The translations under genes were made by a program, and so were the position numbers. Of a stretch of 64,000 nt of DNA, positions 10,478-22,146 are shown in pieces. The stretch spans positions 1,721,819 to 1,785,818 of the forward strand of contig NZ_FWWY01000001.1 in assembly GCF_900176145.1 (NCBI RefSeq). The letters are read 5' to 3'. Every line of letters begins with the position of its first letter. Position 1 is the stretch's first letter. Below the pieces are notes generated by a model. It ran no database searches. It was not told the origin of the DNA and saw only the letters and a program-made list of their open reading frames with translations. Source of the DNA: Sulfobacillus thermosulfidooxidans DSM 9293 (lineage in GTDB: Bacteria > Bacillota > Sulfobacillia > Sulfobacillales > Sulfobacillaceae).

Positions 10478-10964
10478 CTTCTCACCTCAATGTCATCATA
10501 GAATAGATTTCTATTGATTGCAAGAAAATCTTATAATACTTATAAGTTATTCTCCATTAAGCAGAATATCCCATGGTCCTGTGTTTATCCTCATTCTTTC
10601 TCACTTGTTCTTTGGCATCCACTAAAATCTTGAATTTCCCGCATCCTTTCGGAACAAAGATTATCCTTTGTTGCTCTTGGGAACTGATCAAAATCGCATT
10701 ATCTTAAATGACGTCAACGATGTTGATGTGCTCTTATTATTACAACTGTTTTAATACTGCTGCATAGGGTGCAGCAGATCATTGTATGTTTGGCTTTAAA
10801 GAATAAAGTAGAGTGCTCTTTTTTTATGAGAGGGATTTGCCAAAATAGCAAAAGAATGGAAGTAATTAGTGTAAAATAAAAATAGTTCCAAATTTACTGT
10901 CAATTTTTGATTCTAGGTTTACCTTTATTGAATAATTTTGGCGCTGAAATAAGGAGTGATTAAG
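10478..10964. other. AT-rich intergenic region upstream of doxD
   Basis: No convincing gene lies in this 487-base gap. It is clearly more AT-rich than the neighbouring genes. It holds a short perfect hairpin at 10757-10777 (CTGCTGCA, loop TAGGG, TGCAGCAG) that could be an operator, and the probable doxD promoter near its right end. The size suggests complex control of the thiosulfate oxidation genes. Confidence 0.5.
10907..10936 (+). promoter_or_regulatory. Predicted sigma-A-type promoter of doxD
   Basis: TTGATT at 10907-10912 and AATAAT at 10931-10936 are separated by 18 bases, about 29 bases before the doxD ATG. Matches to the consensus are moderate (4/6 and 5/6), so this is a candidate only. 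Confidence 0.4.
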
Positions 10965-11531
10965 ATGGTACAAACGCAAGCTCCGACTGATACGATTGTT
11001 GCGAAAGACCCAGTAGAAACCAACTGGATACCCGTATCTTATTTGTGGCCTTTGCGTTTTATTTTAGGATTTCAGTTCTTATCGGCGTGGGCTCGCCGGT
11101 ACATTAACGCACCAGCGAAATTAGATTGGTATGCCAAAAGTAATATTGCCCACAAGTTTAGCACCATGATGCCGCACGCTTTACCGCCGATTCGGGCCAT
11201 GATGCAATGGCTCTTGTTACATCCCCATTTGGCCTGGGCGTTTTTAATCACGTTTACATGGATTGAATTTACGGTGGGTCTCTTTCTTTTAACAGGTACC
11301 ATGACCCGGTTGGCCGCTTTAGGTGGCACGTTACTATCATTCGGTATGTTATTTGGTAACGGGTGGCTTGGAACGGCATGTATCGACGAGTTTCAAATTG
11401 GGACGGTCGAAGGAATTGGCGCTATGATCTTCCTCTTTATTGGTGCCGGCAGCTTTAGTGTGGATCACTGGATTCACAAATACTGGGACGGTCATGTCCG
11501 CCTTGGCAAATTAGATATTCACTTGACCTAA
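10965..11531 (+). CDS. doxD: Thiosulfate:quinone oxidoreductase, DoxD membrane subunit
   Basis: An integral membrane protein of 188 residues with about four hydrophobic segments (WPLRFILGFQFLSAW; LAWAFLITFTWIEFTVGLFLL; LAALGGTLLSFGMLFG; TVEGIGAMIFLFIGAGSF). The overall pattern matches TQO subunit DoxD. TQO oxidises thiosulfate to tetrathionate and passes electrons to the quinone pool. Identification is strengthened by doxA 1.8 kb downstream on the same strand. ATG 10965 is preferred over GTG 10956 because AAGGAGTG lies 6 bases before it. An IS110 element has separated the two subunit genes. Confidence 0.87.
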   Translation: MVQTQAPTDTIVAKDPVETNWIPVSYLWPLRFILGFQFLSAWARRYINAPAKLDWYAKSNIAHKFSTMMPHALPPIRAMMQWLLLHPHLAWAFLITFTWIEFTVGLFLLTGTMTRLAALGGTLLSFGMLFGNGWLGTACIDEFQIGTVEGIGAMIFLFIGAGSFSVDHWIHKYWDGHVRLGKLDIHLT

Positions 11532-11673
11532 TTAAAAATCGAACAATGGGAATCAGTCGAAATCGCTGTCTCGTGTTTTGAGATCGATAAAGTCCCGCGG
11601 TTAAATGTCAAGAACCGATCAGCTTAGGACAACGACGAACAGGGCCAGGGCAACATAAACCTGCCTAAAAGGA

Positions 11674-11687
11674 GGTGGTAGATAATG
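11674..11687 (+). other. Orphan Shine-Dalgarno and ATG at the IS110 left junction
   Basis: AAAAGGAGGTGG followed 5 bases later by ATG 11685 is an excellent translation start, but the frame behind it (MANQLSIPLV...) immediately enters the antisense of the IS110 transposase. It may be the 5' remnant of a gene, or of the original doxA start, cut by the insertion. The 536-residue open frame that results is not considered a gene. Confidence 0.45.
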
Positions 11688-11708
11688 GCAAATCAGTTGT
11701 CAATCCCT

Positions 11709-12944
11709 TTAGTGCGGCATCAACTTCCTTTCGTCGTAGATTTGGCCCCGGGTCAGCATCCCGTAGACCACGCCGACCAACTTGCGTGCCGTCAAGACCA
11801 ACGCCCGCTTATGCGCGTGGTGCGTGGCTTCGTGGTACTTCTTCTCGTAAAAGGCTTTGAACTGCGGGTCCCGCACCCGGACCCTCTCCGCCGCTTCGAT
11901 GAAGTAGTACCGCAAATAGACGTTCCCCGTCCGCGTCAGCGGACGGATGTCGGCATCAAAATTCCCCGATTGATGCGGGCGCCAGGTCAGCCCCGCATAT
12001 TTGGCCAAGGCATTTTCCGACGGAAATCGTTCGATGGGACCGATTTCGGCCAAGAGGCCCGCGCCATAGACCGGACCAATCCCCGGAATCGTGGTCAGGG
12101 TTTGGCGAAACGCCTGCATGTCACGGGCAATCACTTTGTCCAGCGCCTGTTGTTGATGTTCCAAGGCCCGGATGGTGTCCAAATGCAGGACCAAGCTTTG
12201 GTGCCGCGCGTCCTGCTCGTCCGGATGCAACCGAAAGGCGCGCCGCGCCAAGCGGTGCAAGGTCTGCGCAATGTCATCGGGCGCTTTCAGCCGTTGGCGA
12301 CCGGCCGCCGCGATTTCCGCCACCAGATCCGCCAGCGGGATGGCTGCCAGCGTATCGGGCGTGTAGCGTTCCAACACGGTTTGCGACGCTACCCCAAAGA
12401 CGTTCGAGAAAAACGGCTCCTCCGTATGGGCATACTGCCCCCAGACACAAAACAATTGCACCAACGCGCGATTTTTTTCTTGGGTGATGAGGTGGCTCAG
12501 CTGCCGACGATGGCGGGTCAAGACCTGCAACGCCGCATAGCGCGGATCCGGCGGGGTCCAGGGCGTGACGCGCCCAAACCGCATGACATCCGCAATCAGG
12601 GCGGCATCCGCTCGGTCGGTTTTGCCCCGATCCACATAGGTCTCTCGGAATTTCTGGACGACTTTCGGATTGAGGACGTACCAGGTGGGTTGCCACCGCT
12701 GCAAGTCGGGGGTTTGCGTCAGCCATTCCATCAGCGGCACATGGTACACGGACGTGGCCTCGACGCCAATGGCCAGCCGCGCGTACGGCGCGGCGTGGGG
12801 GTGCAGCCAGGCGACGAATTGCTCGGCCCCCGCCTGATCGTTGGGGACGGTCGTCCGCGCGACGACCTGGCCATCCGCCGCCATCGCGCAGACGACGTGA
12901 GCCCCGAGACTGGTGTCAATACCGACGTACAACACGCTATCCAT
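11709..12944 (-). CDS. IS110-family transposase (DEDD recombinase)
   Basis: A complete 411-residue transposase with AGGGAGGTG before the ATG at 12944. The N-terminal RuvC-like DEDD domain begins LYVGIDTSLGAHVVCAM and has GVEATSVYH and DRGKTDRADAALIADVMR. The C-terminal Tnp domain has TTIPGIGPVYGAGLLAEIGP and AKYAGLTWRPHQSGNF, with the conserved Ser of the AG..P....SG motif. The reading frame has no internal stop, so the element may be active. Recent work on this family (IS621) shows that the enzyme is guided by a bridge RNA encoded in the noncoding end. Confidence 0.95.
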   Translation of the reverse strand: MDSVLYVGIDTSLGAHVVCAMAADGQVVARTTVPNDQAGAEQFVAWLHPHAAPYARLAIGVEATSVYHVPLMEWLTQTPDLQRWQPTWYVLNPKVVQKFRETYVDRGKTDRADAALIADVMRFGRVTPWTPPDPRYAALQVLTRHRRQLSHLITQEKNRALVQLFCVWGQYAHTEEPFFSNVFGVASQTVLERYTPDTLAAIPLADLVAEIAAAGRQRLKAPDDIAQTLHRLARRAFRLHPDEQDARHQSLVLHLDTIRALEHQQQALDKVIARDMQAFRQTLTTIPGIGPVYGAGLLAEIGPIERFPSENALAKYAGLTWRPHQSGNFDADIRPLTRTGNVYLRYYFIEAAERVRVRDPQFKAFYEKKYHEATHHAHKRALVLTARKLVGVVYGMLTRGQIYDERKLMPH

Positions 12945-13290
12945 GGGATTTCACCTCCCTTCGCGGAGGAATGCATCGGGAACGGGATTTCGCCGACGCG
13001 CCGACGCCTTCGCCGCAACCTCGCTTATAAGCCGTCATCGCCACCCGCGGTGTGCGATAGACCGGTGCCACGGGTCTCCACGGGGGGAGCGGCATCCCGC
13101 GCGTTAACTGTGACGAAGCGGCGTCGCCGACTCACAGACTTTCGAAGCCGTCAATCCGGCAGGAGGAATGCAGTCTTGAATCGTCCCGATCTTCTTCGAG
13201 CATCGCCGACGAAACCCGATCTGGCAAGCCTGATCATCCCGAATGCCGATTGCTGCTGGCCGCGAGGCAGGCCTCAAGATAAAGCCTCAG
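12945..13290 (-). ncRNA. Candidate bridge RNA region of the IS110 element
   Basis: The noncoding end 5' of the transposase gene is where IS110-group elements encode their bridge RNA. The stretch is GC-rich and full of short inverted repeats, for example CTGTGA at 13108-13113 with TCACAG at 13132-13137 enclosing CGGCG/CGCCG. The motif GGAGGAATGCA occurs twice (from 12964 and from 13162). RNA ends and the two guide loops were not resolved. Assignment rests on family knowledge plus position. Confidence 0.45.
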
Positions 13291-13331
13291 GGTAGCAGAA
13301 TCAATTTCTTTATACGAGGAGGAATCAGGTC

Positions 13332-13865
13332 ATGCAAGTTGAGCGAGAGTCACGGCAGCCCGCCAAAGCGGCGGTACTGAAAAAACAAAGCATTGGCATG
13401 TTAATTGTCGCCATGTTTTTGACCTTGTGGGCATACCAATTTGAACACCATGGCTTGTGGGGCAAATTGGTGAATTACAACAAAGCGCCGAAACTGGTGT
13501 TAACGGGAACGACAGTGAGCCCTCATACTTTAAACTTAGAAGTGTATCGTCCCAATGGCCCAGACACCTACGGCAACTTTGTGGTTGAAGTTACGGTGCA
13601 AGGTACGACGGAATCGACACCAGCGGAAATCTGGGGACCGAAACAATTGGCGGCGGTGAATCCTTCAGCCATTCACAATAAATACTTCTTTCAAAAAGTG
13701 TCAGAAGGGCCATGGGGATTTGTCGTACCCTTGTCCGCAGAAGCCACGATTCAATTGCCTTTGAGTCCGTCGGCCCAAGCTAAATTGCAAGGCCAAAGTC
13801 AGGCCGTTGTGACCGTGGAAGATGTAAGTGGATTGAAGTGGCAAACGACGGTACCCGTGAAATAA
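13332..13865 (+). CDS. doxA: Thiosulfate:quinone oxidoreductase, DoxA subunit
   Basis: A 177-residue protein with one N-terminal membrane segment (SIGMLIVAMFLTLWAYQ) and a beta-rich outer domain, the layout of the TQO DoxA subunit. Family-like stretches include HGLWGKLVNYNKAP near residue 40 and GPWGFVVPLSAEATIQLPL near the middle of the C-terminal half. The gene starts 15 bases after ACGAGGAGG. The IS110 element lies directly upstream in opposite orientation, so expression would need readthrough past the element or a promoter near its right end. A strong terminator follows. Confidence 0.83.
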   Translation: MQVERESRQPAKAAVLKKQSIGMLIVAMFLTLWAYQFEHHGLWGKLVNYNKAPKLVLTGTTVSPHTLNLEVYRPNGPDTYGNFVVEVTVQGTTESTPAEIWGPKQLAAVNPSAIHNKYFFQKVSEGPWGFVVPLSAEATIQLPLSPSAQAKLQGQSQAVVTVEDVSGLKWQTTVPVK

Positions 13866-15242: not shown

Positions 15243-15472
15243 ATGGAACATCACGATGCTGACAAAGAAGGATTTGCAAAAGAAGGATTGGCATTAGCAT
15301 CCTGGCGTACCCGTAATGTTTGGGGATTTTCCCTAGCTTCTTTGTTTTCGGATATGGGACATGAATTAGTCACGACGGTGTTGCCGGCGTTTTTGTTGAC
15401 AATCGGAGCACCCGTTTTTGCTCTTGCAGTGATTGAAGGGATCTCTAATTTTAGTCAATCCCTATCCTCTTT
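15243..15472 (+). pseudogene. MFS transporter, 5' fragment (interrupted by insertion sequences)
   Basis: The first 76 codons of a major facilitator transporter, starting at ATG 15243 after GGAGGGATG. It contains the first membrane segments (WGFSLASLFSDMGHELVTTVLPAFLLTIGAPVFALAVIEGI). The reading frame is cut at 15472 by element IS-A. Removing the insertion and one copy of the duplicated TCTTT joins this part in frame to 18621-19626 and gives a 411-residue protein reading SQSLSSLLGGKWANNT across the join, a normal MFS sequence. The transporter is therefore inactivated. Confidence 0.9.
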
Positions 15473-16316
15473 GAGTTTTTTCCGCTGTAGCCGATTTCAG
15501 TCAATCTGCGGCGACTCCACAGCCGTTTGTCACGCAGATCCCAGAGGGTGAATGGGCCTCAATTATGGCGGAACAGGATGAATCGACGCCGAAGCAGCGG
15601 CCCGACGGGCCGTTCCGGGATTTCGATGAATGGGGGTGGGGTTCACGACCCCACGAGGCGGCGCATCCGCTCCGGTTGCCGTTGCCGTATCCGCCCGAGC
15701 GCCATCGCCAACATCACGATGAGGGCCAACCCGCAGCGGAGTTGCATTTTCTTTAGCCCCCGAATGGTATGGAGTTCCAACCCGAACGACACATCCAACC
15801 GACTGTTCACCCGTTCCACCGCCGTGCGATGGGCATACTCGCGCTTCCATTGATAACTGGCCCGGTCCATGGGCGTAAAAATCCGCCGATCGGTCTGTAA
15901 GGGAATGCGCAGGCCCTGGACGACGGGGCAGGTGTCTTGACCCCGGCAGGACACGCCCGCAAAGCGGGCGGGGCACCGCTTTTTGAGACGTTGGCGCCTG
16001 ACTTCGAATCCGCCGTTACTCATGGTGTGAACCTGACCCGTGACCGGATCCTGACAAAAGACGTCGCCACGATAATTGTAGGTCACCGTCGAATGGCCCG
16101 GTAGCACTCGCGTGGCATCCGGGTCCCGCCACATATTCCGGATATCGATCACCGGCTTAATCTGGTAGCTATCCCAGCAGGCGGCGATCAATTTGGTATC
16201 ATCATAGCCCCGGTCGGCCGTTAAAAGGACGGCACGGGACAGCAGCACCCCGTGGCGATGGTGCAGATGATCCAACATGGGCATCGCCCGGGTCACATCG
16301 GACACCGACGCTTTCG

Positions 16317-18071
16317 TCACCTCCCACGCCACCGGCAATTCGTACGTCGAATCCACCACCAGGTGCAGCTTATACCCGAACCACTTGACCACTTTGGTCC
16401 AGGTAGTCCCGTCCTCATGCACACCGCGGTATTCCTTCCGTCCAAATCGGCATCGACGTCCCGGCGCCCATCGGCGGTGGGGTTTTTGGCGGGCCGCACG
16501 GCCCGCGACGAGATACCCTTGCTGTCCATGGCCAAGCGCTGACCGAAATTCGGGAGCACGGCGGCGAGGTCATCCACCAGCTGCTCAAACATCCCGTCCA
16601 CGGTATCCTGTTCGGCCATCAGACGATGCAGAAATCGGGTGTAGGCCGACGCGGGCGGGACGGCCGCGTTGCGGAACCCGCACAGCATGCGCAGTTGCGC
16701 ATTGCGGGCCAGTTCTCGGCGAAGGCTCTCGATGCTGGGGTGTTGGAAAACCAGAGGTTGTCCCAAGCTTCGTGGAATTTCGCTAGCGCATCCTTTCTCG
16801 TGATTTAACCGATTTGTCTCGGTTTTTTGTTCCGGCGTTTTGGAACACGTGGCTTTTAAGGCCGTTTGCAACACGGGAATCTCGCGATAGCCGGGGATCC
16901 GCGTCAACGTGTCTTCGATAAAAAAGCTCGCCGACGCCAACCAGCGTAAGACTTGTTGCCCATTGGTCCAATGTTTGACATTTTGCGCATGGGTCCGAAA
17001 TTGACTGTTGATGGATTCCATGGCATTGGTGTTCGCCAACGTTTGGCGTAAGAGGCCCGGCAGGCCCAATCGATGGACGGTTAACGTTTCCGCCAGTCCT
17101 TCCCGGAGACTCCCAGCGGCGCCGGGATGATCCCATTCGAGCTCTTTCGCGAGCGCTTCTAATGCCTGCGCGGCCCTGTCCGCATCCGGTTCTTGATACG
17201 CTTTCCGTAAGCGCTGGCGGACCCGATTTTCGGCCGATTTCGGCAGGTGGTCGAGCACATTCCGTTGCTTGTGGATTTGGCAGCGTTGGATGAGGACTTG
17301 GTCTCCCCAGACGTCGTGCACGGCTTTGGCTAAGGCCTTGGCCCCATCGATGACCACGAGTAATCCCTGCGCGGCCGTCAGGCCGCGAGTGATGAGATCC
17401 TGCAATAAGGCCATGACTACGGTATGATTTTCTGTCGCCCCTTCGACCAATCCCAAGACACGCTTGTGACCGTCCGCATCAATCCCTAAGGCGCCCACCA
17501 CCAGATGGTCCGCTACACGCAAACCATCGATCATCACCACCACCCACGTCCGGTCATCCAACCGGCGCTGGAGAAAGCGGTCAAGGGCCTGTTGGGTGGC
17601 TTGGATAAAGCGGCGGCTCACCGTGCTTTTGCTGGGGCCTGGCTGCTCCATCGCGGCTTCAAAGGCTGCATCGGCATGGCGCTGTTGGCGGCTCGCTAAG
17701 CCATACAGCATGCGTTCCAGTACGGCTTGTGTCGCCAGCGTCGGGTCCTGAAACTGATGGTAGGTGTCTAACGGAATTTCCTCCGAGCCATCAGCGGCCC
17801 GCACCCGGGGGTGCGGAACGGAGATTTTGCGATCCCCCAAAAAGACGCTGCCGACTTCGGTCCCGTGTCGGACCGCTTGGCGTTGCGGATCATGACGGCC
17901 TTTAGGCCCTGCCAACTGCTCCACCTCGGCCGCCATCATCTGTTGCAAAACCTGCAATCCGACCCGGATCGACAGCGCCAATAACCCGTCTTCGGCATCC
18001 TGGAGGATGTCCACCCACGGCACCGTCACCGACTGTTCGGGAAGCGATTTTTTCTTTATACTGGTAGTCAC
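16317..18071 (-). CDS. IS256/Mutator-family transposase, reading through into IS-A
   Basis: The Mutator transposase occupies about the first 440 codons: GTEVGSVFLGDRKISVPHPRV, then TWVVVMIDGLRV with the first catalytic Asp, VVIDGAKAL with the second, IQRCQIHKQRNVLDHLP, and TNAMESINSQFRTH with the Glu region. No in-frame stop occurs before the element's end at 16753, so the frame continues for about 145 codons into the host transposase sequence. IS256 proteins are normally about 400 residues, so the tail is extra. It may have lost its original stop by a frameshift near the end. Confidence 0.85.
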   Translation of the reverse strand: MTTSIKKKSLPEQSVTVPWVDILQDAEDGLLALSIRVGLQVLQQMMAAEVEQLAGPKGRHDPQRQAVRHGTEVGSVFLGDRKISVPHPRVRAADGSEEIPLDTYHQFQDPTLATQAVLERMLYGLASRQQRHADAAFEAAMEQPGPSKSTVSRRFIQATQQALDRFLQRRLDDRTWVVVMIDGLRVADHLVVGALGIDADGHKRVLGLVEGATENHTVVMALLQDLITRGLTAAQGLLVVIDGAKALAKAVHDVWGDQVLIQRCQIHKQRNVLDHLPKSAENRVRQRLRKAYQEPDADRAAQALEALAKELEWDHPGAAGSLREGLAETLTVHRLGLPGLLRQTLANTNAMESINSQFRTHAQNVKHWTNGQQVLRWLASASFFIEDTLTRIPGYREIPVLQTALKATCSKTPEQKTETNRLNHEKGCASEIPRSLGQPLVFQHPSIESLRRELARNAQLRMLCGFRNAAVPPASAYTRFLHRLMAEQDTVDGMFEQLVDDLAAVLPNFGQRLAMDSKGISSRAVRPAKNPTADGRRDVDADLDGRNTAVCMRTGLPGPKWSSGSGISCTWWWIRRTNCRWRGR

Positions 18072-18168
18072 TAGCGATTCCTCCTCAAGATGGGTTCAGA
18101 CCTCTCTAGTAAACCAGAGAGCCATCAGGATCGCTAGTTTCAATTTCCACGAAAAATGGGGCATTCTC
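16753..18168 (-). mobile_element. IS256-family insertion sequence nested in IS-A
   Basis: The element is 1416 bases and is flanked by an exact 8-base target duplication GGAAAACC (16745-16752 and 18169-18176), the length typical of IS256. The ends are imperfect inverted repeats sharing TTCGTGGAA and CTAGCG.ATCC (left AGAGGTTGTCCCAAGC.., right complement GAGAATGCCCCATTTT..). It carries one Mutator transposase on the minus strand. The host sequence on both sides matches copy 2 of IS-A. Confidence 0.95.
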
Positions 18169-18620
18169 GGAAAACCACCCCGGCCAACACCGAATTCCAC
18201 ATCGCCCGGACCGGGTACGCATTCCGCCCATGCCCACGGGCGGCTTCCAGGTGGGCCATGAGGGTTTCATCCGGGACCGTCTCGAGGACGAGCACGAGGC
18301 GTTCGAGGTCGCCTAATTCTTCGAGATCTTGCCACGAAAAGAGAGAAAGTTGTGGTATGATAGCCATACGGGAGAGCTCCTTTCGGAAAATTGTGGTTGG
18401 TACTTCAATTTTACCAGAGCTCGGCCCGTTTTTCTTAGGGTTTTGCGGGTTTCGGGGATCGCGGCACGGTGTGCCGCGGGTGGGGTCAAATCGGCCGCCG
18501 GCGGCCGACCGGGAACCGAAAAGCCGCATTCCTCCGTCCATGAATGGGGGAAATTCTTTATGAGCCTCTGCGAATCCCGCGCCCCTCTACGGTTTCAAGA
18601 CAGCGCAAATGCCTCTCTTT

Positions 18621-19626
18621 GTTAGGAGGAAAATGGGCGAATAATACGGAGTCAAGACGGTCCATTGTCGTCGTTGGCTATATTCTAACTGGAATTAAAG
18701 CGTTAATTGCGTTGGTCAGTTATTGGCCATGGATTGTGCTGCTGAGAACGTTGGCGTGGATTGGTCGGGGAGCCAGAGGTCCGATTCGAGATACTATGAT
18801 TGCCGATGAAGTGCCGTCTAGTGACCGCGGCAAGGCCTATGGTTTTCGTGAAACATTTGATACACTGGGTGCGATCTTAGGTCCTTTAGCGGCAACCCTG
18901 CTTATCGCGATGATTTCTTCGCGAACGCTCATTGCCTTGAGTGCGATTCCAGCGGTACTGACAATCCTCGTGATCATGTTATTTATTCGGGAGCCTAAAC
19001 GAGTAGAATTCACCAAGGAAACGTCCTTGGAATCATCTCCTTCAAAACCGGGCGAAGCGATTTCATGGCCCGAACAGTACCGGATTTTCCGCCGCGCAGT
19101 CATTGTGTTTTGGTTTAGCCAAGCGGCGCCAACCTTCTTTATCTTGCGTGTACTACTGGCCCATCCTCACGGTCTGCCTTTTTCTACCGATGTAATAGGG
19201 TTTGCTCTTTACACGATTCATAATATTTTTTATGCCGCTTCGTCCTATCCAGCCGGATTAATGGCTGATCACGGGCATCCAAAATTGGCTACGGTTACGG
19301 GTTATATTTTGTGGACCCTGAGTCTTTTAGGATTTGCAGATTTTCACCTTTTGCCTCTACTGTTCTGGCCTGTCTTGTTTATCTTTTCCGGTCTAGCCAC
19401 AGGCCTTATTGAAACCGGACAGAAGACCCTGACAGTGGCTATTTTATCGCCTCATGTACGCGGGATGGGGCTTGGACAAATTGCCGGGCTTAAAGGACTG
19501 AGTCAACTTGTAGGAACTCTCGTGATAGGCGCTCTGTGGACGTTACACCAGCCCGCTTGGGGATTTCTGGTTTTAAGCGTAGCGGCCGTATTAGGCATAC
19601 TGAACATGGCAGTTGTCAAGGTGTAA
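18621..19626 (+). pseudogene. MFS transporter, 3' fragment
   Basis: This part encodes the remaining ~335 residues of the transporter begun at 15243: GYILTGIKALIALVSYWPWIVLLRTLAWIGRG, then the MFS loop RGPIRDTMIADEVPSSDRGKAYGFRETFDTLGA between segments, and at least seven further membrane segments. It has no start of its own. An artificial frame from 18544 begins inside IS-A. The sequence itself shows no other damage, so inactivation by the insertion was probably recent. Confidence 0.9.
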
Positions 19627-19706: not shown

Positions 19707-20987
19707 CTATTCTTGAGACACGATGAGATCATAGGGCCATACAATATTAAGGATTGACGCAAAATGCTCTTCAATGGTTTCAGCAGGGTGAACATGTCCG
19801 CTCGCGTCCATGATGGATAACCATAACGGTAAAGTCCAAATGCCAAACGCATCGAGATGTTGTTGTTCCAGCCAGTGATTAATTTGTTCAAGGTAGCGGC
19901 TGACACCTTCATCGGTCATTAATGCTGTCCCATCGTTCCACGGTTTGACTAATTGGTGCAACCACTGAGCTTGAATGATTCCGCCATGAGATTCAGGATC
20001 ATAAATCCACCGGGGTACAAAGGGTTCTTGACCAGTAATGAAGAGAAGAAATGCCCCCAGATTATAATTTTGCTCCCAATCTGCACTGTCCTCGGCAAAG
20101 CGTAGTAACCGTGTACTCCGAGACCCTTTATCCGCAATCAACCGGAGAATATGTTCTAAATCGGGTATTTCCGGTTCGAAAATTTGCGCAATCACATCAT
20201 CAGAACATTGTAGCGCATATAATAAACGAACGGTAAGCGCCGATTGCTCTAATAATCTTTCATAGTTGACTTGTACTAACGGATAAATGGCCTCATGAAT
20301 CCAGGCATGATTTCCCCTGGTCGCGTTAAAAGGCATTTTCAAAATATGACATGGGGTGCGCGGCAACGCAAGCTGAGCGGGCAAATAATTCCAGGCCGCG
20401 GACTCACTAGGACGGGATAAGATATCGGTCAGTGAGCGCAGACGAATATCTCCCATCCGAATATCCATTGCCTGTAATGCCGGATGCACGATACCATTCG
20501 CTTCGACAACGGGGGTGTGCGCTAAATCGATACGGACTACCTTGTTTTCCGCAAAATGACAAAGAATCTCATTCTTTTCGTCACTCTTGGCGTTTTGCAC
20601 CCAGAATGTGTTCACTTCCTGTTCACAGGCCAATTGACTGGGAACCGCATGCAACACCTGAGCATGACCTTTTAGAGGCAGCTCTTCATCAACCAGGATC
20701 GTGACCGGCTTCGATATAAAGTGCATCCAGTGGCTATCTTCGCCAGGTGATTCCCGCCATTGCAATATGATTTCTAGCGGCGATTCATCAGAACCGTGGC
20801 TCAAAGCATAATCAAGCACAGTGCCTAATTCATGATACATGGGACAAGGGTCTTTGACGATGACCCACAAAAGAGCGTGATCAATGCGTCGCAACTCGGA
20901 AATGATATGGAAGGCATCGGCAAGTTGCCATGGGGTCTTCATCTCTACCTGCGTTAAATCCCATATCAATGTTGGTCTGAGTTGCAT
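19707..20987 (-). CDS. Unknown protein, possibly a cysteine-less radical SAM/SPASM-like partner
   Basis: A 426-residue soluble protein, 34 bases downstream of the radical SAM gene on the same strand. I do not recognise a named family. By eye, its N-terminal part follows the layout of its neighbour: RPTLIWDLTQVE against PHIITWELTRAC, and ALLWVIVKDPCPMYHELGTVLDYALSHG against PMIIFTGGDPLERDDLSDIIKAAVSRK. Residues 161-195 (GIVHPALQAMDIRMGDIRLRSLTDIL) resemble the region leading into a SPASM domain. The CxxxCxxC cluster motif is absent. About 200 C-terminal residues have no visible match. Confidence 0.5.
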   Translation of the reverse strand: MQLRPTLIWDLTQVEMKTPWQLADAFHIISELRRIDHALLWVIVKDPCPMYHELGTVLDYALSHGSDESPLEIILQWRESPGEDSHWMHFISKPVTILVDEELPLKGHAQVLHAVPSQLACEQEVNTFWVQNAKSDEKNEILCHFAENKVVRIDLAHTPVVEANGIVHPALQAMDIRMGDIRLRSLTDILSRPSESAAWNYLPAQLALPRTPCHILKMPFNATRGNHAWIHEAIYPLVQVNYERLLEQSALTVRLLYALQCSDDVIAQIFEPEIPDLEHILRLIADKGSRSTRLLRFAEDSADWEQNYNLGAFLLFITGQEPFVPRWIYDPESHGGIIQAQWLHQLVKPWNDGTALMTDEGVSRYLEQINHWLEQQHLDAFGIWTLPLWLSIMDASGHVHPAETIEEHFASILNIVWPYDLIVSQE

Positions 20988-21021
20988 AACTCTCGCTCCT
21001 TGTTTTTCCGTTTATCTCTTA

Positions 21022-22044
21022 TTATACGGTTTGCATCGACTGTGCGAGTTCTGTTCCGGGGCAACCGGGATCTTCAGCTAAATAATTTCCCGTTACGGCG
21101 TAGGCTCTTGCCCGGGAACCGCCACAAATAGCACGATAAGCACATTGACCACAACGCCCTTCTAATTTGTCGGGATTGCGCAAATCACAGAACAAAGGGG
21201 ATTCCCGGTAGATTTCACTAAAACGCTGACGCTTAACATTGCCAGCCGATACGGGTAAGTAACCGGATGGGAACACATCTCCATAATGACTGATAAAGGC
21301 AAATCCTTGCGCTTCGCGAATGGTGGGACTTTGATTTAAAGGTCTAGCCATGACCCGAGAAAATTGCGGCGCTCCGACGGCTGTTACCCGAAATGACACG
21401 TCTTTTGCATAATCTCTTAGCCATTCCAGTGAGGATTCAATGTGCTTAGCATCCAGACTTTCTGATAAGCGGGCTCGTCCGGTAGGAATGACAAAAAAGA
21501 CTTCCCAGCTTTTGGCTTTCAGGATTTGCACCAGGCGACCCATTTTGGGCAGATCTTGTAGCGTAAAGGGTGAAACTGAGGTGTTGATTTGAAGATCCAT
21601 ACCTTGATTGACGACGGCTTCGGCGATTTCTACACTCCGTGCAAAGGTCCCTAACACGCCTCTAAAGCGGTCATGTACTGCTTGGGTGGCGCCATCTAGA
21701 CTAATGGAAACTGCTTGGACTCCAAGGGTTTTCCAAATTTTGATAATTTGTGGGGTTAACGAAGGCGTCACACTGGGGGCGATCGCCGTGCGGATTTTGC
21801 GGCTAACAGCAGCTTTTATAATATCGGATAAATCGTCACGTTCGAGCGGGTCTCCTCCCGTGAAAATAATCATGGGCTTAGGACGCATACTGGCGATATC
21901 ATCTAAAACATTCTCAATTTGGGGCAACGTCAACTCGCGAAAGTCACGGCGTGGAATTGCTCGGGCCCGGCAGTGACGGCAATGTAATTGGCAAGCCCGG
22001 GTTAATTCCCAGGTAATGATGTGTGGTGCTTCATTGAAATTCAT
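21022..22044 (-). CDS. Radical SAM/SPASM-domain protein (TIGR04053-like)
   Basis: A 340-residue radical SAM enzyme. Cys18, Cys22 and Cys25 (ACQLHCRHC) bind the SAM-reducing [4Fe-4S] cluster. IIFTGGDPLERDDL is the GGDP/GGEP SAM-binding motif. The C-terminal SPASM-type region has GRCGQCAYRAICGGSRARAYAVTG and PGCPG, which would ligate further clusters. It is similar in pattern to the haem-biosynthesis AhbD group and TIGR04053. The substrate is unknown. It forms a two-gene minus-strand unit with the downstream 426-residue protein, which could be its partner. Confidence 0.88.
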   Translation of the reverse strand: MNFNEAPHIITWELTRACQLHCRHCRARAIPRRDFRELTLPQIENVLDDIASMRPKPMIIFTGGDPLERDDLSDIIKAAVSRKIRTAIAPSVTPSLTPQIIKIWKTLGVQAVSISLDGATQAVHDRFRGVLGTFARSVEIAEAVVNQGMDLQINTSVSPFTLQDLPKMGRLVQILKAKSWEVFFVIPTGRARLSESLDAKHIESSLEWLRDYAKDVSFRVTAVGAPQFSRVMARPLNQSPTIREAQGFAFISHYGDVFPSGYLPVSAGNVKRQRFSEIYRESPLFCDLRNPDKLEGRCGQCAYRAICGGSRARAYAVTGNYLAEDPGCPGTELAQSMQTV

Positions 22045-22099: not shown

Positions 22100-22146
22100 A
22101 GTTAGGACCATTAGGATCTCCTGATGGTGACCAAATGGTCCTAACT
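22100..22146. terminator. Inverted repeat between korB and the radical SAM gene
   Basis: AGTTAGGACCATT (22100-22112) is perfectly repeated in inverse at 22134-22146, with a 21-base loop, immediately after the korB stop. There is no T-tract on the minus strand, so it may be a weak terminator or a protein-binding site before the radical SAM operon. Confidence 0.45.

Follow-up and report, generated by a model that had tools for sequence, protein, structure and literature searches.

A radical SAM/SPASM enzyme gene of Sulfobacillus thermosulfidooxidans DSM 9293 is directly followed by a gene for a 426-residue protein that lacks the CxxxCxxC motif, and the two form a conserved gene pair. We read the 426-residue protein as a pseudoenzyme derived from the AhbC/NirJ family, which would serve as a non-catalytic subunit of the adjacent enzyme, a member of NCBIfam family TIGR04053, with a tetrapyrrole as the probable substrate. 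Taken whole, this reading has in our judgement about an even chance of being right. The pair lies in the window, which is the complete 64,000-nucleotide stretch of DNA that was analysed, and the host genome (3.86 Mb) is nearly complete. An earlier, sequence-only reading had named both open reading frames, and both are present:

19707..20987, minus strand: candidate pseudo-radical-SAM gene, 426 aa, without CxxxCxxC; four further Sulfobacillus species have its orthologue next to a TIGR04053 gene
20988..21021, minus strand: intergenic spacer of 34 nt, with an AGGAG-like ribosome site ahead of the 426-residue open reading frame
21022..22044, minus strand: TIGR04053 radical SAM/SPASM enzyme gene, 340 aa, with an intact CxxxCxxC motif and a four-cysteine SPASM motif

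The gene pair and its distribution

The 340-residue protein scored 401.7 bits against the TIGR04053 model, above the cut-off of 395, and matched PF04055 at 4.4e-20. It carries a CxxxCxxC motif at residues 18–25 (C18, C22 and C25), a TGGDP motif, and the SPASM motif C298xxC301x5C307...C328, and the cysteines of both motifs are unchanged in 13 orthologues. For the closest species pair, dN/dS of the enzyme gene was 0.019. Searches of a defence library revealed only general radical SAM similarity to viperins, and our literature search found no paper on TIGR04053 or on pseudo-rSAM.

Orthologues of the 426-residue protein were sought in 61 relatives. Five genus members have it, the other four copies being 93, 61, 59 and 57% identical to it, and a single distant relative of 584 residues (L026:5331-7085) was recovered from another genus of the order (genome G035). 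In 5 of the 7 near-complete genus genomes the two genes are adjacent and on the same strand, with the partner directly after the TIGR04053 gene. Spacers in the four other species measure roughly 33–45 nt, and an orthologous contig of the pair comes from S. benefaciens AMDSBA1. The dN/dS of the partner gene, again for the closest pair, was 0.045, indicating strong purifying selection, with looser constraint on the N-terminal half (0.056) than on the C-terminal half (0.026). Adjacency in these genomes, together with a dN/dS of this size, establishes a real, selected gene pair, and the pairing postulated in the sequence-only reading recurs in five species.

Outside the genus the family thins out abruptly. 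Among 154 genomes of the class, the C-terminal domain occurs in six, namely the five genus members and G035. A two-peptide-pattern scan of 84,980 species returned only 3 loci, all from or near the genus (one in a named Sulfobacillus, the other two on MAG contigs of Bacillota with matches to genus members), and in a phylum sample of 398 genomes the pattern scan matched only the window's own genome. The 426-residue family is thus new and confined to one small lineage. Genus members G001 and G004 carry the TIGR04053 enzyme with no adjacent partner and form a single clade in the enzyme tree; no remnant of the partner was found beside their enzyme genes, the G001 contig stopping ~300 nt downstream. 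The distribution of the partner in the genus is explained by a single gain or a single loss. At the partner's usual site in G004 (L022:9329-9948), just downstream of the TIGR04053 gene, an apparent toxin-antitoxin pair, a PHD-like antitoxin and a PIN-like toxin, was recognised by eye.

The partner gene would most likely be co-transcribed with the TIGR04053 gene, and a non-catalytic subunit of the enzyme is the simplest interpretation of a conserved pair with so short a spacer. It would also be compatible with a shared operon for the partner, a dead AhbC/NirJ derivative, to act alone, for example as a sensor or carrier (tetrapyrrole or redox) that operates through its helical domain. The G035 homologue is solitary, sitting ~1 Mb from the TIGR04053 gene of that genome and beside a GAF histidine kinase, and elsewhere in the class TIGR04053 enzymes nearly always occur with no partner, as would be expected of an independent protein. 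Strict adjacency and a short spacer have nevertheless been maintained in five species while the partner diverged to 57% identity, and on this ground we consider independent action rather unlikely. Because the G035 homologue is so distant from its TIGR04053 gene, and because G001 and G004 have no adjacent partner, the subunit that we favour would not be needed by the enzyme in general.

Terminator and promoter scans around the pair found nothing above shuffles. An inverted repeat at 22100-22146, with 16-nt arms that are 94% complementary, separates the radical SAM gene from the 2-oxoacid oxidoreductase beta gene; it was not called in the terminator scan but perhaps ends the upstream operon. An MFS transporter gene next to the pair is split in two (region 15243-19626), and its N-terminal (15243-15551) and C-terminal (18544-19626) parts flank nested transposase genes, of which a Mutator-type element (16317-18071) was apparently inserted in a DUF772/DDE transposase; the MFS gene is intact in G003 (L017:6261-7487). 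Within region 10956-13865, a minus-strand transposase (11709-12944), of IS110 type by eye, separates a DoxD-like gene (10956-11531) from doxA (13332-13865) of thiosulfate:quinone oxidoreductase; these two genes are adjacent in G003.

Ancestry and predicted fold of the partner

The 426-residue protein matched no Pfam or NCBIfam model, and PDB sequence searches with the protein and with its profile returned nothing significant. Its parts are as follows:

20367..20987, minus strand: N-terminal part, residues 1–207, proposed shrunken radical SAM barrel and truncated SPASM region
20364..20513, minus strand: SPASM lead-in region, residues 159–208, homologous to AhbC/NirJ-type enzymes
19710..20336, minus strand: C-terminal all-helical domain, residues 218–426, common only to the G035 homologue
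residues 5–12: first strand, PTLIWDLT
residues 39–49: DP after a hydrophobic strand, LLWVIVKDP
residues 165–193: SPASM-like lead-in, GIVHPALQAMDIRMGDIRLRSLTDILSRP

The sequence-only reading had described the protein as a cysteine-less look-alike of its neighbour, with the same order of segments. The CxxxCxxC motif for the SAM cluster is indeed absent, but the protein is not devoid of cysteine: residues occur at 48, 121, 143, 213 and 261, and Cys48, 121, 143 and 213 are invariant in the four Sulfobacillus species aligned. Since two of these four are followed by an invariant histidine, a metal site is possible. The CxxCx5C...C motif of the SPASM auxiliary cluster is lacking; only C213 aligns, and this first cysteine of the SPASM set, just past the lead-in, seems to have been kept.

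All three segments of the proposed order (the start strand, the DP motif and the lead-in) can be found, but the lead-in is the sole landmark with statistical support. Compared with AhbC/NirJ-type enzymes, it gave an hhalign score of 37.1, with a shuffled maximum of 23.4 and 0 of 150 shuffles as good, and it also matched the G035 homologue above all 150 shuffles. Residues 1–150 did no better than shuffles when compared with two radical SAM profiles (22/80 and 17/80 as good). Against TIGR04053 the lead-in scored 16.0, a chance level reached by 43 of 150 shuffles. Likeness to the adjacent gene is therefore unsupported: the only stretch with a detectable match resembles AhbC/NirJ-type enzymes, not TIGR04053.

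The homologue from G035 connects this fragmentary signal to a complete protein. Its SPASM motif, CRACAWERVCGG...C, is intact, and comparison with AhbC/NirJ-type sequences showed that the CxxxCxxC and GGEP motifs are absent. Residues 59–371 align with AhbC/NirJ-type proteins of the class (alignment A3) over 310 columns with an hhalign E-value of 4.6e-18, and the SPASM region matched NirJ (2.8e-12), the TIGR04347 pseudo-SAM family (6.5e-10) and AhbC (4.9e-9). A plasmid search with this protein returned NirJ proteins only, mostly through the SPASM part. The C-terminal domains of the homologue and the 426-residue protein match at E 5.2e-21 over residues 222–423, and the two proteins are colinear, with the 426-residue protein ~160 residues shorter owing to loss in the barrel and the SPASM motif. 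Judged from these alignments, the homologue is a complete-barrel pseudoenzyme of AhbC/NirJ ancestry and would be the missing link to the 426-residue protein, a further-shrunk version of it.

An AlphaFold2 model of the 426-residue protein, built on only four usable sequences, had a mean pLDDT of 43, with block values of 25–80 over residues 1–207. It predicts a beta-alpha-beta-alpha-beta start (E6-10, H21-32, E39-45, H51-62, E72-78), strands in the SPASM region and an all-helical C-terminus; modelled alone, the C-terminal domain reached a pLDDT of 35 and gives secondary structure only. Foldseek with the model returned no significant match, the best being triosephosphate isomerases at E 0.018 or worse. 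When the Foldseek candidates were aligned with VIA, the top nine were all radical SAM enzymes, with Z of 7.1–8.3 in this low-confidence model, for which a Z of ~8 can come from a chance arrangement. These matches, structures of BtrN, AbmM, EpeE, SuiB and a sactipeptide thioether enzyme, fall within residues 1–208, and the next unrelated barrel has a Z of 6.3 or less. The ranking is supportive of, but does not prove, a radical SAM fold for residues 1–208. Structure prediction and fold search, which the sequence-only reading had proposed, thus gave a weakly positive answer: VIA favoured radical SAM enzymes, but model confidence was low and Foldseek fell short of significance.

If only the SPASM lead-in had been borrowed, residues 1–150 would be some other small alpha/beta domain rather than a barrel remnant. 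The missing sequence signal in that segment, the low-confidence model and the triosephosphate isomerases at the head of the Foldseek results are in keeping with such a domain. Two observations speak for a remnant: the colinear G035 homologue, which has an equivalent start and shares the lead-in and the C-terminal domain, has a full barrel in between, and VIA places nine radical SAM enzymes above every other barrel. A borrowed lead-in accordingly strikes us as decidedly improbable. The notion that the 426-residue gene is a decayed tandem copy of its TIGR04053 neighbour on the way to being lost, suggested by adjacency and by the similar landmark order in the sequence-only description, is barely credible, and tandem duplication was rejected, given chance-level similarity to the TIGR04053 profile where AhbC/NirJ matches, low dN/dS with intact frames in five species, and a C-terminal domain that is absent from TIGR04053.

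The preferred reading remains that of a radical SAM derivative that has lost catalysis and has an additional domain at its C-terminus, a proposal of the sequence-only reading that the G035 homologue and the nine VIA matches largely bear out. In this scheme, an AhbC/NirJ-type ancestor would have lost the cysteines of the SAM cluster, ~120 residues of the barrel and most of the SPASM motif, and the resulting pseudoenzyme would carry an added all-helical domain of ~200 residues.

A possible two-subunit enzyme and its substrate

In the mechanism we propose, the TIGR04053 protein would make the 5'-deoxyadenosyl radical, and the dead partner, as a non-catalytic subunit, would hold or present the substrate or stabilise the enzyme. 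Since the usual mode of binding the radical-generating cluster is closed to the 426-residue protein, any effect it has would be exerted through binding.

The substrate is probably a tetrapyrrole. We base this guess on the nearest characterised models of the 340-residue enzyme, on HemY-like neighbours and on Ahb genes elsewhere in the class. The second-best NCBIfam match of the enzyme is the AhbD heme synthase, followed by NirJ2 and NirJ. In L036 the TIGR04053 gene is preceded, on its own strand, by a HemY-like gene, and in L027 the two kinds of gene face each other. In class-mate G059, AhbAB-like genes, AhbC and an AhbD-like gene lie within ~4 kb on one contig, and the same Ahb-type set is found, more loosely, within ~9 kb in G057. 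Two further kinds of gene were noticed in the neighbourhood of TIGR04053. Family-mates have nearby a protein that combines a UbiE-like methyltransferase at its N-terminus with a C-terminal part that looks like a universal-stress-protein domain (L023:7053-8189, L024:1776-2954, L030:3246-4364, L031:6833-7969). In several genera, the enzyme gene is adjoined by one for a ~360-residue protein with no NCBIfam match, the C-terminal half of which looks like a class II aldolase (L027:5431-6528, L030:1101-2168, L035:8513-9592).

The host genome encodes CgoX, CpfC and ChdC, the coproporphyrin route to heme, and TIGR04053 as its sole heme route was rejected. An Ahb pathway is likewise not supported, since neither an AhbAB match nor an AhbC-type match above 100 bits was found in this genome. 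With the coproporphyrin route present and an AhbAB match absent, a heme role is not required of the pair and would be that of a back-up for anoxic growth, which for Sulfobacillus is speculative. A division of this kind is known from Haloferax, which uses AhbD anaerobically and ChdC aerobically (PMC5746218). Our leading guess for the reaction would be an oxygen-independent back-up to ChdC. The most specific version is a long shot: an oxygen-independent enzyme for tetrapyrroles (possibly heme) made of two subunits, one active and AhbD-like, the other a dead AhbC/NirJ-derived chaperone that holds the substrate and has a new helical fold.

Comparison with known systems

AhbC and NirJ are radical SAM enzymes that trim side chains of siroheme-derived tetrapyrroles, and both the G035 homologue and the lead-in of the 426-residue protein descend from their family. 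The 426-residue protein differs from them in having no CxxxCxxC, a shortened barrel, no SPASM cysteine set and an extra C-terminal domain. Among the models, AhbD (TIGR04545) is the closest characterised relative of the 340-residue enzyme at 286.9 bits; this is far below the 500-bit cut-off, and the genome has ChdC and no AhbAB match.

For the division of labour, a close parallel is TrnC/TrnD of thuricin CD. These two radical SAM proteins are tightly complexed, and just one of their radical SAM activities is strictly required (PMC12093266). A radical SAM protein may therefore have a place in a complex even when the chemistry it performs itself is not strictly needed there. TrnD, however, is still an active enzyme, and the substrates are peptides (PMC12093266).

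The sequence-only reading knew of no described two-component system of this form, a statement that does not hold, because NCBIfam already names both a pseudoenzyme family and a SPASM-only partner. TIGR04347, pseudo-SAM/SPASM and haloarchaeal by its NCBIfam name, is a relative with no working SAM site; the G035 homologue matches its SPASM part at 38.8 bits, whereas the 426-residue protein gave no hit (cut-off 525), has also lost SPASM cysteines and has gained a C-terminal helical domain. GeoRSP combines, by the NCBIfam names, a radical SAM/SPASM protein (TIGR04303) with a SPASM-domain protein (TIGR04304). Against TIGR04304 the 426-residue protein again gave no hit (cut-off 300) and the G035 homologue scored 17.5 bits; unlike that of GeoRSP, the partner described here carries a new domain, stands closer to AhbC/NirJ and has lost SPASM cysteines. 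The arrangement thus has precedent in dead or SPASM-only radical SAM relatives, and by score the 426-residue family belongs to neither TIGR04347 nor TIGR04304 and would be distinct also in its pairing with TIGR04053. Together with its relatives it makes up a graded series, from active AhbC/NirJ enzymes in class-mates, through the G035 pseudoenzyme in which barrel and SPASM motif are kept, to a shrunken protein encoded beside an active gene. If the partnership is real, the pair would offer a handle on the function of TIGR04053 and a natural case for studying the use of a radical SAM fold that has given up its chemistry.
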